Shown here piece by piece: positions 40,084-46,324 of a stretch of 64,000 nucleotides of DNA; position 1 is the first letter of the stretch, and the number at the start of each line of letters is the position of its first letter. Both the position numbers and the translations under genes were made by a program. This stretch comes from Sterolibacterium sp. (GTDB lineage Bacteria > Pseudomonadota > Gammaproteobacteria > Burkholderiales > Rhodocyclaceae), in contig JAHRWT010000017.1 in assembly GCA_019105045.1 (NCBI GenBank), positions 1-64,000 of the forward strand, in the 5' to 3' direction. The notes beneath the pieces were generated by a model. The model was not told the origin of the DNA. It did no database searches and was given only the letters and a program-made list of their open reading frames with translations.

Positions 40084-40416
40084 TCAAACCCGATGCAGCA
40101 GCACGGTAATCAATAACGTGGCGTTTTCCAGCGCGGTGACGGCATGGGGCACGCTGTCGGCCAGATAGATCAGGCTGCCAGGCCCCATCTGCTGGCGCTT
40201 GCCGTGAGCCTCAAGTTCGATCAGACCTTCGATGCACTGCAAGGTCATCGCGCCGGCCGCCGTATGTTCCTGCAATGTTTTGCCGGCAGGCACCGCCAGC
40301 CGGAAAACCTCCAGGTGCTCGGCTCTCACCAGAGTGACCGAAGCCTTGTCGTGAAAAGCCGAACCCAAAGGACGGACATCCATCAGCTCCCCTGAAGCGG
40401 CATGTGTCATGGCCAT
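40084..40416 (-). CDS. cupin domain protein
   Basis: A 110-residue single-domain cupin. AGKTLQEHTAAGAMTLQCIEGLIELEAHGKRQQMGPGSLIYLADSVPHAV covers both cupin motifs, but the first retains only one His of the usual HxH pair, so metal binding is uncertain. It is the last minus-strand gene of a run with hemerythrin and the flavin reductase, 62 bases after the hemerythrin gene. A role in nitrosative stress is inferred only from this context. Confidence 0.82.
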   Translation of the reverse strand: MAMTHAASGELMDVRPLGSAFHDKASVTLVRAEHLEVFRLAVPAGKTLQEHTAAGAMTLQCIEGLIELEAHGKRQQMGPGSLIYLADSVPHAVTALENATLLITVLLHRV

Positions 40417-40478: not shown

Positions 40479-40943
40479 TCAGGACGGCAGCATGGAATGG
40501 CAGCCCGCGCCCAGTTGCCGGTGGGCTTCGTCGATGCGCGCCAGGGCTTCGGCGGACAGCAAGGACTCCGCCCGGTTGAACAATTCCCGCTCTTCGAAGC
40601 GGACATGCGCATCGAGCAGCTTGCCAAAATCAGCGACCACAGAAAAATCCTGCGCGCCAATTCGCGTTGCCAGGCGACGCAACTCGGCATGTTCCAGCAA
40701 GGTGCGCTCGACCATGGGAATAACCTCGTCAGCGGGCCGGGCTTCACGCAGCGCCGACAGCAAGGCGATTTCCTCCACCTGGAAATGCGGCTCCAGTTCG
40801 CGGGCAAAAATCTCCGGCAACGTGCTCATGAATTCCCTGGCCTCGGTCTGGGTGCCTGCGGCCAGGCGCTGGGCGCGCTTGGCCAGCACCAAGGCCGTGT
40901 GATGTTCACGGGACAACTGCAACAAATGCGGACTGCGACGCAT
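40479..40943 (-). CDS. hemerythrin HHE-domain protein
   Basis: A 154-residue four-helix protein with the diiron ligands of the HHE family: HH in LSREHHTALVLAKR, HFQVEE in helix 2, EHAELRRLA in helix 3 and HVRFEERELF in helix 4. Such proteins bind O2 or NO or repair iron-sulfur clusters (family knowledge). It lies in the minus-strand run with the reductase and DUF2249 genes, near nsrR, which suggests a function with nitric oxide. No membrane segment is present. Confidence 0.88.
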   Translation of the reverse strand: MRRSPHLLQLSREHHTALVLAKRAQRLAAGTQTEAREFMSTLPEIFARELEPHFQVEEIALLSALREARPADEVIPMVERTLLEHAELRRLATRIGAQDFSVVADFGKLLDAHVRFEERELFNRAESLLSAEALARIDEAHRQLGAGCHSMLPS

Positions 40944-41042: not shown

Positions 41043-41900
41043 TCACCAATAATTCTCGAATGCCAGCTGCCCCGGCTTGCCACGCCGCCCCACCTGCAGG
41101 CCGCGCTCGGTCAGCTGCCTGCGCAGATCAACCGCCATTTGCGGATTGCCGCAGACCATCACCCGCGAATGCGCCGCATCAAGCGACACGCCGACCCTGG
41201 CTTCCAGACGGCCATCCGCCAACACTTCCGTGATGCGCGCAGACAGCGTCCCCGCAACGGATTCACGCGTTACCAACGGCACATAATGCAGGCGCGCCCG
41301 ACTCCCGGCCAGCAGCACATGCTGCGGCAAGCCGGCAATGGTCTTGCTGTAGGCCAGATCCCGCGCTTCGCGCACGCTATAGACCAGCACCAGATTCTCG
41401 TAATCCTGCCAGACTTGCGGGTCATGCAGAATGGACAGAAAAGGCGCGACGCCCGTGCCACTGGCCAGCAGCCACAAATCACGCCCACCGGCAAAGCGGT
41501 CTGTCGTCAGGAAACCAAAGCTGTTCTTTTCGATCCGCAGGCTATCGCCGATTTGCCGTTCAGCCAGGCGAGTAGTGAATTCGCCATCCGGCACGACGAT
41601 GGAAAAAAACTCCAGATGCTCATCGTAACTTGCCGACGCCATGGAATACGCCCGCCACACAACCTCGCCATCAGGCTCGTCACGCCGCAGCGGCAAGCCC
41701 AACCGGGCAAACTGCCCGGGCACGAAGCGGAACCCTGGATGGCGCGTGGTACGCAGGGAAAACAGCTGCGGTGCCCAGCGTTTGATGCCGAGTATGCGTT
41801 CTTCGCTCCATTTTTCACTGCCCGCAGCCTGCGAAGACTGCGAAGAGTGCAAAGACTGCGAAGACTGCGCCAGAAAAACCGTTTCGACAGGTTTGTTCAT
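41043..41900 (-). CDS. ferredoxin-NADP+ reductase-like flavoprotein
   Basis: A 285-residue FNR-family protein. RAYSMASASYDEHLEFFSIVV is the FAD-binding RxYS segment, DLWLLASGTGVAPFLSIL is the NADP loop, RVMVCGNPQM follows, and it ends in the typical FENYW. It moves electrons between NADPH and ferredoxin/flavodoxin (family knowledge). An unusual Ser/Gln-rich linker (SSQSLHSSQSSQ, residues ~12-24), encoded by four 9-bp repeats, separates the start from the flavin domain. Inferred role: reductant supply in the NsrR-associated cluster; the DUF2249 gene is 58 bases upstream. Confidence 0.88.
   Translation of the reverse strand: MNKPVETVFLAQSSQSLHSSQSSQAAGSEKWSEERILGIKRWAPQLFSLRTTRHPGFRFVPGQFARLGLPLRRDEPDGEVVWRAYSMASASYDEHLEFFSIVVPDGEFTTRLAERQIGDSLRIEKNSFGFLTTDRFAGGRDLWLLASGTGVAPFLSILHDPQVWQDYENLVLVYSVREARDLAYSKTIAGLPQHVLLAGSRARLHYVPLVTRESVAGTLSARITEVLADGRLEARVGVSLDAAHSRVMVCGNPQMAVDLRRQLTERGLQVGRRGKPGQLAFENYW
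41829..41864 (-). repeat. four 9-bp tandem repeats inside the FNR gene
   Basis: CTGCGAAGA is repeated four times (the third copy has two changes) followed by CTGCG. Length changes in whole units would keep the reading frame and alter only the Ser/Gln linker. Confidence 0.92.
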
Positions 41901-41958
41901 CTTGCCTCCACGCCACACTCCATTCTCCGCACCATGCCGTCGCCGCCACACCGCTGGC

Positions 41959-42255
41959 TCAATGCACAGCGGCCAGCTTGTCCTTGTCGAGCGACCGTCC
42001 CAACGCCACAGCCGCATGTTTGCGGATGCGGATGCGCCAGCATTGCGGCCCCTGCTCCAGATATTCCCAACTGAAACCGCGTGGTGCTTCGGCCAGCAGC
42101 AAATAGCGCAAAGGCGTCGAATGATGAAAATGCGTCAATTCGAGCGTTTCCCCCGGCTGCAAGCGGCTGAAACGCTCAAAAACCAGCGGCCGCCGCTCTG
42201 CCGCAGCCAGCATGCGCAAGTCAACAGCGATATTCCCTTGATTTTCTTGATCCAT
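41959..42255 (-). CDS. DUF2249 protein (first copy)
   Basis: A 98-residue DUF2249 protein with LVFERFSRLQPGETLELTHFHHSTPLRYLLL and WEYLEQGPQCWRIRIRK. The family has a sulfur-carrier-like fold and accompanies denitrification and NO-response genes, but its biochemical role is unknown. I start at the ATG at 42255. An NsrR-type site lies 30-50 bases upstream. A second DUF2249 gene, 43283-43564, lies on the other side of nsrR. Confidence 0.85.
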   Translation of the reverse strand: MDQENQGNIAVDLRMLAAAERRPLVFERFSRLQPGETLELTHFHHSTPLRYLLLAEAPRGFSWEYLEQGPQCWRIRIRKHAAVALGRSLDKDKLAAVH

Positions 42256-42283
42256 GGTATTGCTCCCTGCCACGCAATGACAT

Positions 42284-42306
42284 AAGGTATATTTCACATA
42301 CAACTT
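42284..42306. promoter_or_regulatory. NsrR-type operator upstream of DUF2249/FNR genes
   Basis: The plus strand reads AAGGTATATTT then, after three bases, ATACAACTT: a 23-base inverted repeat with ends AAG...CTT. The first 11 bases match the known NsrR half-site AAGATGYATTT at 9 positions. It lies 29 bases before the DUF2249 start and 62 before nsrR, so could repress both. Confidence 0.6.
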
Positions 42307-42367
42307 AATATTAGCAACTCAGTCTGCTGAAAGCAATATTTGAACTACATCTTTAACGGATTCTGCC

Positions 42368-42811
42368 ATGCGTCTGACCACCTTTTCTGACTACACCTTG
42401 CGCGTCCTGATGTACCTGGCGCTCGATCCGGATCGCCTGGCGACCATTCCGGAAATCGCCGCCGCCTATGACATCTCCGAAAATCATCTGATGAAAGTGG
42501 TGCACCAGCTCGCCCGCACCGGCGTCATCGACTCCATCCGCGGCAAGGGTGGCGGCATTCGCCTGGCACGGCCGGCAGACGAAATCCGTCTGGGTGCCGT
42601 GGTCCGCGCCAGCGAAGGCGAAAGCGCCATTGTCGAGTGCATGGATCCGGAAAAAAACACCTGCTGCATCACCCCGGCCTGTCAGCTCAACAGCATCTTG
42701 ATCCGCGCTTTCAACGCCCTCTTTGACACACTCGATGAGTACACCCTGGCCGACCTGATGGGCAAGAAGCAGGCCATCATCCGCCTGCTCAATACGGGGA
42801 ACCCGGGCTGA
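42368..42811 (+). CDS. nsrR: Rrf2-family nitric-oxide-sensing repressor NsrR
   Basis: A 147-residue Rrf2 regulator. The N-terminal MRLTTFSDYTLRVLMYLAL and the helix-turn-helix ending GKGGGIRLARP match the family, and cluster cysteines are Cys91, Cys99/Cys100 and Cys105 in VECMDPEKNTCCITPACQL. This spacing and the ECx7-8Cx5C context fit NsrR, whose [4Fe-4S] or [2Fe-2S] cluster is destroyed by NO, releasing repression (family knowledge). NsrR-like sites flank the gene on both sides. It lies between a minus-strand DUF2249-reductase-hemerythrin-cupin run and a plus-strand DUF59-DUF2249-NnrS-like run. Confidence 0.88.
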   Translation: MRLTTFSDYTLRVLMYLALDPDRLATIPEIAAAYDISENHLMKVVHQLARTGVIDSIRGKGGGIRLARPADEIRLGAVVRASEGESAIVECMDPEKNTCCITPACQLNSILIRAFNALFDTLDEYTLADLMGKKQAIIRLLNTGNPG

Positions 42812-42824
42812 AATCGCGCCACAT

Positions 42825-42893
42825 AAGATGTATTTATTTTGTTGCTTAAAAGATTTTCCAATGATAATCTGTACATGTATCGATGATACATCT
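42825..42893 (+). promoter_or_regulatory. promoter region of the DUF59 operon with NsrR-type sites
   Basis: AAGATGTATTT (42825-42835) is a perfect match to the NsrR half-site. Downstream, ATGTATC-GAT-GATACAT (42875-42891), extended by CTT, forms a palindrome sharing the GATACATCTT arm. A possible promoter TTGTTG (42839-42844), 18-base spacer, GATAAT (42863-42868) lies between them, so the palindrome would cover the transcription start. Confidence 0.6.
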
Positions 42894-42901
42894 TTACAGC
42901 C

Positions 42902-43243
42902 ATGACCGAGACGACGACAGCAGCCCCTTCCAACGGCACACTTGATCTTGATGGACTTGTCGAAGCCCTGCGTGCGGTGATCGACCCTGAAGTCGGCATG
43001 AACATTGTCGACCTCGGCCTGATCTACCGCATCGTGGTCACCGATGACGAATCCGCACTGGAAATCGAGATGACCATGACCTCACCGGCTTGCCCGATGA
43101 GCGAATCCATCGTCGAAGATGTCGAGATTGTCCTGCGCGATCAATTGCCGGAAGAAGTGCTCAGGAATGTCAAACTGGTCTGGGATCCCCCCTGGAGCCC
43201 ATCGATGATGAGTCCGGACGCCCGGGCGCATTACGGCTGGTAA
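42902..43243 (+). CDS. DUF59/MIP18-type iron-sulfur assembly protein
   Basis: A 113-residue protein of the MIP18/PaaD-like (DUF59) family: AVIDPEVGMNIVDLGLIYRI, then TMTSPACPMSESIVEDVE with the conserved cysteine, and VWDPPWSPSMMSPDAR. Relatives help insert iron-sulfur clusters (family knowledge). It opens the plus-strand run that also holds a DUF2249 gene, an NnrS-like gene and an FmdE-like gene, directly behind an NsrR-type palindrome. Repair of NO-damaged clusters is a reasonable inferred role. Confidence 0.88.
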   Translation: MTETTTAAPSNGTLDLDGLVEALRAVIDPEVGMNIVDLGLIYRIVVTDDESALEIEMTMTSPACPMSESIVEDVEIVLRDQLPEEVLRNVKLVWDPPWSPSMMSPDARAHYGW

Positions 43244-43282: not shown

Positions 43283-43564
43283 ATGAGCAATGCAGAAAAC
43301 ATCAAGACCACCATCGATGTCCGCACCATTCCGCCGCGTGAACGCCATCCGCTGATTTTCAATACCTATGACAGCCTGGCTGCCGGTGAAGGCTTGTTGC
43401 TGGTCAATGACCACGACCCGAAACCGCTCTATTACCAATTCCAGTCCGAATCCAAAGGCGAATTCACCTGGGACTATCTGGAACAGGGTCCGGCCGTCTG
43501 GCGCGTGCGCATCGGCAAGGCCGCCACCGGAGAAGCCGCCAGCACCCGTTGCTGTAGCCACTGA
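43283..43564 (+). CDS. DUF2249 protein (second copy)
   Basis: A 93-residue DUF2249 protein with HPLIFNTYDSLAAGEGLLLVNDHDPKPLYYQF and WDYLEQGPAVWRVRIGK, paralogous to the copy at 41959-42255. Its C terminus ends in STRCCSH, a Cys-Cys pair absent from the other copy. A GGAG ribosome site precedes the ATG. It follows DUF59 by 39 bases and precedes the NnrS-like gene by 49. Confidence 0.87.
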   Translation: MSNAENIKTTIDVRTIPPRERHPLIFNTYDSLAAGEGLLLVNDHDPKPLYYQFQSESKGEFTWDYLEQGPAVWRVRIGKAATGEAASTRCCSH

Positions 43565-43613: not shown

Positions 43614-44735
43614 ATGCGCCCGCTGCCACCTGCTGCCCGTCTGCCCCTGCTGGCTTTGGGCGTCATTGCCCTGATTGTCGGCATTCTGGCCGGCCTGGCA
43701 CGGCTGGCAGTCCGCGTTCCGGATGCAGCAGCCAGCCAGGCGGGGGTACATGGGGCACTGATGATTGCTGCCTTTCTGGGCACGGTCATCAGTCTGGAAC
43801 GCGCCGTCGCCCTGATGCGCAACTGGGCCTATCTGGCCCCCCTGGGTGCCGGATTGGGCGGCCTGGCCTTACTGGCAGGGTTGCCCATTGCCCTTGCCCA
43901 GTGGCTGTTCTGCCTGGCCGGCGCGACCTTGACTTTCGGCAGCGCCCTGCTGTTTTTCCGCCAGCCCGCACTGTATCTGGCCACGCTGGCGCTCGGCGCC
44001 CTGAGCTGGCTGATTGGCAATCTGGCCTGGTGGCTCAGCGACCACATTTTCATCGCCATCCCCTGGTGGATGGCCTTCCTGATCCTGACCATCGCTGGCG
44101 AGCGGCTGGAACTGACGCGTTTTCTGCCAACCACGCTGACGGTACAACGAATTTTTGCAGCCATCGTCGCCTTCATGTTGCTGGGTCTGTTGCTCACCTT
44201 CTGGTCAGAAAACATGGGCCTGCGGATTTTTGCCGCCAGCATCCTGGTACTTTCCTTCTGGTTGTTGCGCAATGACATTGCCCGGCGTACCGTCAAGCAG
44301 GCCGGCCTGACCCGTTTCATTGCCCTGTGCCTGCTGGGAGGCTATCTCTGGCTCATCGTCGGTGGCCTGCTCGGTATGCAGGGTAACTTCGCAAGCGTCG
44401 CCGCCGGCAGCCCTCTGCGCGATGCGGCTTTGCACAGCATCTTTCTTGGCTTTGTCTTTTCGATGATCTTTGGCCACGCGCCGGTCATCTTTCCAGCCGT
44501 CGCCAAGGTCAGAATCGACTACCATCCGGTTTTCTATCTTCCCTGGCTGCTGCTGCACCTGTCCCTGCTGTTGCGCATCATTGCCGACCTGCTACCTGCC
44601 GCCCACGCGCTGCGTGGTCCGGCTGGCATCAGCAATGCCATCGCTCTGGCGCTGTTCATCATCACCATGCTGCTGGCGGTGGTGAAAACCGCGCAACGCC
44701 GGCGTCACGTGCAGGCCCGGGGACAGGACAACTGA
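43614..44735 (+). CDS. NnrS-like polytopic membrane protein
   Basis: A 373-residue protein with about 12 membrane helices. HSIFLGFVFSMIFGHAPVIFPAV resembles the heme/copper-ligand-bearing segment of NnrS, a membrane protein that protects against nitrosative stress (family knowledge). HGALMIAAFLGTVISLERAVAL near the N terminus is also NnrS-like. The ATG at 43614 begins just before the first helix; the frame is open further upstream over the DUF2249 gene but is not conserved there. Context supports an NO role. The family assignment is moderate because full NnrS is usually longer. Confidence 0.72.
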   Translation: MRPLPPAARLPLLALGVIALIVGILAGLARLAVRVPDAAASQAGVHGALMIAAFLGTVISLERAVALMRNWAYLAPLGAGLGGLALLAGLPIALAQWLFCLAGATLTFGSALLFFRQPALYLATLALGALSWLIGNLAWWLSDHIFIAIPWWMAFLILTIAGERLELTRFLPTTLTVQRIFAAIVAFMLLGLLLTFWSENMGLRIFAASILVLSFWLLRNDIARRTVKQAGLTRFIALCLLGGYLWLIVGGLLGMQGNFASVAAGSPLRDAALHSIFLGFVFSMIFGHAPVIFPAVAKVRIDYHPVFYLPWLLLHLSLLLRIIADLLPAAHALRGPAGISNAIALALFIITMLLAVVKTAQRRRHVQARGQDN

Positions 44736-44748
44736 TACAGGACACCTC

Positions 44749-45369
44749 ATGCACACACCCGATTTCTTTACTGCGGTTCCCACCTTGAAACTGCACGATC
44801 CACTGGCGAATTTTCTGGGTACCAGCCAGGATGGCATCATCGAATACACTTATCTTGATGTCGTCAAACTGGCCGGCCATTCCTGCCCCACTGTGGCTTG
44901 CGCTTACTGGCTGACGCGCCAGGCGCTGCACGCACTGTATGGCGCGGAGCTGCCCGAACGCGGCGCCATTCGTGTCGAATTCCGTGAGGATCTGCTGGAA
45001 GGGGTGACCGGCGTCATCGCCAATGTCGTGTCCATGCTGACTGGAGCCACCGTCGATAGCGGCTTCAAAGGACTGGCTGGACGCTTCGACCGCCGTCAAT
45101 TGCTGAGTTTCAACGCCGAAATACCGCTGGAAATACGTTATACCCGCCTGCACGACGGCAAGCCGCTCAATCATGTCGATGCTGCAGCCAACCCGCGCCT
45201 GGTGGCCGCAGACCCCGCAACGTTCCAGCTCATGCAGCGTGGTCTGCAGGATCGCGCCAGCCCGGAAGAAAAACAACAGTTTGCCCAGCTCTGGCAGCAG
45301 CGTGTGCGCTGCATCCTGCTCGAACATGGCGATGATCCAGCGGTATTCCAGCTGCAACCGGGCAGGTAA
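44749..45369 (+). CDS. FmdE-like domain protein
   Basis: A 206-residue protein whose VVKLAGHSCPTVACAYWLTRQAL resembles the GHxCPG signature of the FmdE family (named after formylmethanofuran dehydrogenase subunit E). The Cys and His could bind a metal or heme. The function of FmdE-like proteins in bacteria without methanofuran is unknown. It follows the NnrS-like gene by 13 bases and is likely the last gene of the NsrR-controlled run. Confidence 0.65.
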   Translation: MHTPDFFTAVPTLKLHDPLANFLGTSQDGIIEYTYLDVVKLAGHSCPTVACAYWLTRQALHALYGAELPERGAIRVEFREDLLEGVTGVIANVVSMLTGATVDSGFKGLAGRFDRRQLLSFNAEIPLEIRYTRLHDGKPLNHVDAAANPRLVAADPATFQLMQRGLQDRASPEEKQQFAQLWQQRVRCILLEHGDDPAVFQLQPGR

Positions 45370-45492: not shown

Positions 45493-45963
45493 TCAGGCCA
45501 GTTGCTGCGCCTCGGCGGCCAGCGTGCCATGACCGCCATGAATGTAATCCACCAGCTGGTCATTGGAAAATTCCAGCTCGGCGATGATGTCCTTTACCAG
45601 ATCGCCAATTGAAACGATGCCGACCAGTTCGCCATCATCGAGCACCGGCAAATGACGCAGACGATTGCGGGTCATGATGGCCATGCACTCATGGCTACTT
45701 TGGCTGGATGAAACAGAAATCACCGGCGAAGACATGATCTTGCTGACCGGAGTATCGCGCGAAGACAGATCGAACAAAGCAATCTTGCGTGCATAGTCAC
45801 GCTCGGAAAAAATTCCCACGATTTCCTTGCCGCGCATCACCAGCAAAGCACCGAGATTCTTGTCCGCCATCACACGCAATGCCTCGAACACAGTCGCTTC
45901 CGGCGCAGTCGCATACACCGTCGAACTGGTCCTGGCTTTCAGAATATTCGAAATGGGTCTCAT
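45493..45963 (-). CDS. tandem CBS-domain protein
   Basis: A 156-residue protein made of two CBS domains: TVFEALRVMADKNLGALLVMRGKEIVGIFSERDYARKI and SSHECMAIMTRNRLRHLPVLDDGELVGIVSIGDLVK. CBS pairs bind adenine nucleotides and act as energy or redox sensors (family knowledge). The ATG at 45963 is preferred to one 24 bases upstream because AAGGAGGAG lies just before it. It stands alone, convergent with the FmdE-like gene. Confidence 0.9.
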   Translation of the reverse strand: MRPISNILKARTSSTVYATAPEATVFEALRVMADKNLGALLVMRGKEIVGIFSERDYARKIALFDLSSRDTPVSKIMSSPVISVSSSQSSHECMAIMTRNRLRHLPVLDDGELVGIVSIGDLVKDIIAELEFSNDQLVDYIHGGHGTLAAEAQQLA

Positions 45964-46324
45964 CTGTCGCTCCTCCTTGTTGTCCATGTTGCCCTGCAGA
46001 CAATTGCGGACTGCGCCGGCACACGGTATCGCGTTTTATATGAACACATGAGGTCAGCGGATTTCGCTACCACACTGGCACTCACGGTCTTGATTGTAGC
46101 CCACGGCAACGGAAGGTAAAGAAAGCGCTGCACGAATCGGCACGCAAGCGGACGCTGCGGGCTGCCTGGGATGCCAGACGCAAACCTGCGGCAATGACCT
46201 CCCCCTTGCAAAGACGCGCCAGGCTGCAGAGTATGCGGCGCGCCAAATCCGCTGCCGGATGCGTCGGAACACTTTGTGCAGCGCCTCCTGAACACCCACC
46301 TGCGGAATCTCCATCCAGACAGCA
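45964..46324. other. 361-base spacer, no gene recognised
   Basis: Open frames exist on both strands, but none has a recognisable family, a good ribosome site or neighbours' conservation cues. One plus-strand frame reads CLGCQTQTCGND, which may be chance or a decayed Cys-rich gene. Confidence 0.3.

Follow-up and report, generated by a model that had tools for sequence, protein, structure and literature searches.

FmdE (PF02663) is an archaeal family of metal-binding proteins of which understanding is poor, and its members are under no requirement to be encoded beside the genes for formylmethanofuran dehydrogenase. In the bacterial systems that respond to NO, the published NsrR operator is gATGyAT-N5-ATrCATc and DUF2249 (COG4309) is a member of the NsrR regulon (PMC1274295); NnrS is described as a heme-copper-containing protein (PMC1274295, PMC9409073). 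Our search for literature linking FmdE to NO, NsrR or COG2191, with most subscription journals outside its reach, found nothing relevant. In the window, that is, the whole 64 kb stretch of DNA analysed here, an FmdE-like gene is located among genes of the NO response, and the comparison of this locus with those of its relatives suggests a role for this protein.

The FmdE-like gene (44749-45369, forward strand) encodes 206 residues. Its ATG start is preceded by AGGA and is separated by 13 bases from the stop codon of the upstream ORF (43614-44735), and a GHSCP motif occupies residues 43–47; both of these features had been reported in the preliminary description and are confirmed. Homologues are found in 37 of the 101 genomes searched (a count that includes the window's own genome), and the full-length relatives share 41–74% identity with an open frame; therefore, the ORF is a conserved gene and not a chance frame. 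No phage relatives were found in the search. Two genomes (G026 and G011) each contain two full-length copies in differing contexts.

The window protein scores 12.9 bits (E 0.12) against PF02663, for which the curated cut-off is 22.9 bits; a profile search of its own genome matches nothing because the protein is under this threshold, and direct sequence searches of the PDB return no FmdE match. Across the family, 34 of 40 aligned members match PF02663 (best E 3.6e-6), some relatives exceed the cut-off (up to 27.2 bits), and some are already labelled ‘FmdE family protein’ by annotators. An AlphaFold2 model built on a 40-row alignment has a pLDDT of 97; when it is compared with the PDB using Foldseek, the sole match with E <0.001 is 2gvi (E 9.7e-5, probability 1.00, TM-scores near 0.5), a putative formylmethanofuran dehydrogenase subunit E (FmdE) protein. 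The family-wide profile matches and the fold match therefore identify the window protein as a divergent FmdE; the homology is remote but real. Fourteen positions do not vary among 65 sequences (D17, Y33, D37, G43, H44, C46, P47, L63, R71, G72, G99, G105, F106 and G108). The GHxCP motif (G43, H44, C46 and P47) is thus present in 65/65 sequences, and H44 and C46 are the sole invariant His and the sole invariant Cys.

The FmdE-like gene is the last in a four-gene operon on the forward strand that encodes, in order, a MIP18/SufT-type Fe-S assembly protein (42902-43243; PF01883, E 1.9e-16), a DUF2249 protein (43283-43564; PF10006, E 1.5e-32), a membrane protein with 12 transmembrane (TM) helices (43614-44735) and the FmdE-like protein. 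The next gene, a CBS gene (45493-45987), is on the opposite strand; with the ORF real, the PF02663 match remote and the fold that of 2gvi, the earlier placement of an FmdE-like protein at the end of an operon stands. Before the operon is the gene for an NsrR-like Rrf2 regulator (42368-42811, forward strand) that contains an NsrR-type Cys motif and scores 137 bits with the NsrR model (cut-off 182) and 140 with the RirA model. Divergent from the regulator, on the reverse strand, are genes encoding a second DUF2249 protein (41959-42303; PF10006, E 7.4e-20), a ferredoxin-NADP reductase-like protein (41043-42017, the start listed being that of the longest ORF), a hemerythrin-like protein (40479-40943; PF01814, E 2.6e-6) and a cupin-like protein (40084-40416) whose homologue adjoins FmdE in Ciceribacter. 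Three other genomes of the genus keep this gene order. In two genomes, a different membrane protein is encoded between DUF2249 and FmdE (L033:6847-7983 and L052:2655-3782); the L033 copy has no Pfam match.

The gene at 43614-44735 had been described as NnrS-like, an identity that we reject: neither its protein nor any of nine homologues has a meaningful Pfam match, PF05940 included, an hhalign comparison with NnrS gives a probability of 1%, and the true PF05940 genes are at other places in the source genome. Instead, its AlphaFold model (pLDDT 93) is of the heme-copper oxidase/NO reductase type, with Foldseek matches to ba3 and cbb3 oxidases and NO reductase (NOR; probability 1.00) and the predicted 12-TM heme-copper-oxidase fold. 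Among ten sequences, the invariant His residues are H46 in helix 2 and H274 and H288 in helix 10, and none of the His residues that are CuB ligands in helices VI and VII is conserved; we infer a heme-only relative of the heme-copper oxidases. Of 101 related genomes, 26 encode this membrane protein. The pairing of its gene with FmdE, the lack of which in other genomes would have counted against the preliminary description, is retained within the genus and by some genera outside it but is not universal; in many genomes FmdE is at other places, and in other genomes true NnrS genes adjoin it.

An NsrR-type operator, TACATGTATCGATGATACATCTT (42872-42894; 2 mismatches to the extended consensus), immediately precedes the operon's first gene; the sequence cATGTAT-CGATG-ATACATC within it follows the -10-like TGATAATCT and is conserved in relatives. 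Across the 64 kb, no NsrR-type palindrome is better than this one; with ≤4 mismatches allowed, the extended palindrome has five sites, four of them in the FmdE/NsrR-like cluster. The strict pattern GATGTATTTNNAAATACATC was tried and has no match; the real sites carry an N5 spacer. An upstream element, AAGATGTATTTATTTTGTTGCTT (42825-42847), is located 47 bp before the operator and contains the -35-like TTGCTT; a sigma-70 scan called no promoter-like site by its own rule, and TTGCTT-17-TGATAATCT is nevertheless conserved. A weaker NsrR-type palindrome with 3 mismatches (42284-42306) is located between the regulator and the divergent genes. At both promoters (42284-42353 and 42825-42894) NsrR-type elements form pairs exactly 47 bp apart, the upstream one overlapping the -35-like TTGCTT; a spacing of 47–48 bp recurs in four other loci (L038, L040, L041 and L075).

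The same motif occurs at 10 sites with ≤2 mismatches in the loci of relatives (882 kb), as compared with 0 in 20 Markov shuffles, and 8 of these 10 sites are ahead of a series of NO genes that continues into FmdE. In five other loci (L032, L034-L036 and L044), an FNR/DNR-type box precedes a DUF2249-FmdE pair. Judged from the NsrR-type motifs, the FmdE operon in the window is probably controlled by NsrR.

The occurrence of FmdE across genomes also follows that of NO genes. PF05940 NnrS is present in 36 of 37 genomes with FmdE and in 34 of 64 without it (Fisher p 1e-6; within family p 0.0016), and an NnrS or NnrS-like gene is present in 37/37 and 34/64, respectively (p 4.6e-8; within family p 1.5e-4), in tables that were transcribed by hand and a co-occurrence that is confounded by phylogeny. 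DUF2249 and cytochrome d1 co-occur with FmdE alike, with strong cytochrome d1 matches in 31 of the 37 FmdE genomes. By an eye count, 14 of 39 FmdE loci are within ~6 kb of NnrS, an NnrS-like gene or DUF2249, where ~0.7 would be expected on the assumption of five targets per genome. When 79 members are placed on a tree, there are 12 changes of the NO label, losses counted too, as compared with 22.7 in shuffles, and at least five of the changes are forced by well-supported branches; thus, the association is recurrent and not a single inherited arrangement. At 52 of the 79 loci, the HMMs used identify no NO-linked neighbour within 6.5 kb, and some FmdE loci are in housekeeping operons (glyS-plsC-ygjP-gloA and rsmB-ntrY). 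In six genomes of the family (L053, L064, L066, L067, L069 and L072), the FmdE-like gene ends a run of the glyS-gmhB-plsC-ygjP-gloA type with no NO gene nearby. The link to NO proposed from the sequence of the window is supported by the operon structure, the NsrR-type operator, the recurrent neighbours in other lineages and the co-occurrence with NnrS, and the membership of FmdE in NO-response gene sets has strong support.

The neighbourhoods of named relatives share two themes, NO/nitrite respiration and transition metals. In Azospirillum, nirK, FmdE and hemerythrin genes occur in this order beside norCBQD; in Sulfuricurvum, the FmdE-like gene is behind nap genes and moaA. In Paracoccus (L165 and L172), a single run encodes a TonB receptor, Rrf2, FmdE, DUF1971 (YeaR-like), an NMT1-type ABC importer and NnrS. 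Another locus (L148) is arranged similarly, with genes for a TonB-like outer membrane protein, for a periplasmic binding protein and for a secreted FmdE relative. The FmdE-like gene of Neisseria gonorrhoeae, like that of a relative (L136 and L166), is between the permease and ATPase genes of an iron-siderophore uptake operon that, from its gene order, we take to be Fet. On haloarchaeal plasmids (L169-L171, L173, L175 and L176), a conserved trio encodes an HMA protein, a heavy-metal P-type ATPase and an FmdE-like protein, with an HTH regulator adjoining; the ATPase has a CPG motif (GCPGAL) in place of CPC, and its best scores are with the general heavy-metal and cadmium subfamilies.

These recurrent NO or metal neighbours point to an undescribed helper for metals that are damaged or mobilised by NO. 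We see an even chance that the divergent FmdE-fold protein is a soluble cytoplasmic handler of a transition metal, most likely iron, that was recruited to the NO response; such recruitment would be understandable because NO attacks iron centres. In the pathway that we envisage, NO would inactivate the Fe-S repressor NsrR, thereby allowing transcription of the genes for the Fe-S carrier, DUF2249, the heme-copper-fold membrane protein and the FmdE-like protein. The last of these would have, based on H44 and C46, a binding site for a transition metal, in all likelihood iron, and would hold or pass on metal that is released from NO-damaged centres or is needed for rebuilding them, working alongside the co-encoded Fe-S and di-iron (hemerythrin) proteins. 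Metal binding, as predicted from sequence, would agree with the metal-transport contexts as well as with the invariance of H44/C46; because no more than one His and one Cys are invariant, a complete site would need Asp/Tyr, a dimer or a partner. We infer both which metal is bound and that the protein acts in handling or repair; the partners in the window (the Fe-S carrier, hemerythrin and NsrR) speak for iron, as does the operon for iron uptake.

The foremost alternative metal is copper; the haloarchaeal and nirK contexts would suit it too. A copper-handling protein that serves the NirK/NosZ of nitrogen-oxide respiration, or that protects against copper, agrees with the position of FmdE directly behind nirK in Azospirillum and behind the HMA protein and heavy-metal P-type ATPase in haloarchaea; however, that ATPase lacks CPC and resembles the general heavy-metal and cadmium subfamilies best, the operon in the window has iron partners, and most FmdE genomes encode the iron route, cytochrome d1. 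This explanation is unlikely, while standing foremost among the alternatives. Next after it, and unlikely as well, is that the protein binds heme or NO as a sensor or as a heme-delivery partner of the heme-copper-fold membrane protein. FmdE does adjoin the gene for that protein in the genus and in one further genome (G039), and true NnrS genes are beside it in other genomes; however, FmdE is often found with neither gene nearby, it has no heme motif past the His/Cys pair, and a second invariant His is absent. We found no pointer to heme on the FmdE-like protein itself, the heme candidate being the adjoining membrane protein.

The invariant residues could also be those of an enzyme, with C46 as the catalytic thiol for the removal of NO groups or for a reaction on a small molecule derived from NO. 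D17, Y33, D37 and R71 form a pocket-like invariant polar set that would suit such an enzyme, yet this reading leaves the metal-transport contexts unexplained, and we know of no enzyme activity for the FmdE fold. We regard it as improbable. Coincidence, in which a gene with an unrelated housekeeping function would be beside NO genes by chance, has even less to recommend it; although the majority of the examined loci are without NO neighbours and several belong to unrelated operons, the adjacency to NO genes is far over expectation, two kinds of NO/anaerobic operator precede the gene, and the FmdE genomes are nested near-completely within the NnrS-bearing genomes. Least likely of all, and very doubtful, is a helper of molybdenum/tungsten enzymes (e.g., nitrate reductase), as the FmdE name might suggest; the Sulfuricurvum arrangement is the single case in its favour, and the other annotated neighbourhoods are without Mo genes.

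Returning to the iron-handling protein, we tentatively extend this proposal to the family, as a possibility that we hold with clearly less confidence than the proposal for the window: a deeply branching group with the FmdE fold, found in proteobacteria, Campylobacterota and haloarchaea, may be a general cytoplasmic handler of transition metals that was recruited several times to NO regulons under different regulators and that, in nitrosative stress, salvages or delivers iron alongside a heme-only, so far undescribed relative of the heme-copper oxidases. If true, an uncharacterised family would join the bacterial NO-defence set, the orphan FmdE fold would obtain its first testable bacterial role, and NO stress would be tied to metal handling. 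The operators, the conserved residues and the named hosts make the proposal testable now in common laboratory strains of denitrifiers.

As compared with the FmdE family (PF02663; 2gvi, Thermoplasma acidophilum Ta1109), the window protein shares the fold, and its GHxCP-type motif aligns to the start of the PF02663 profile; it differs in being under the Pfam cut-off, in a TM-score of only ~0.5 and in its motif, GHSCPT. Its relatives have neighbours linked to NO or to metal transport; no formylmethanofuran dehydrogenase gene is among the identified neighbours in the window and in the annotated loci of relatives, and a role in formylmethanofuran metabolism is not expected. The adjacent membrane protein resembles the NnrS family (PF05940) as a membrane protein in NO clusters, although it does not match the profile; with heme-copper oxidases and the NO reductase NorB it shares the predicted 12-TM fold and the His residues in helices 2 and 10, but it has neither the conserved CuB-site His residues nor a Pfam match. 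FmdE is unnamed among the members of the NsrR regulon of beta/gammaproteobacteria in the main text of its description (Rodionov et al., 2005; PMC1274295); with that regulon, the window shares an NsrR-like regulator, the operator motif and DUF2249.
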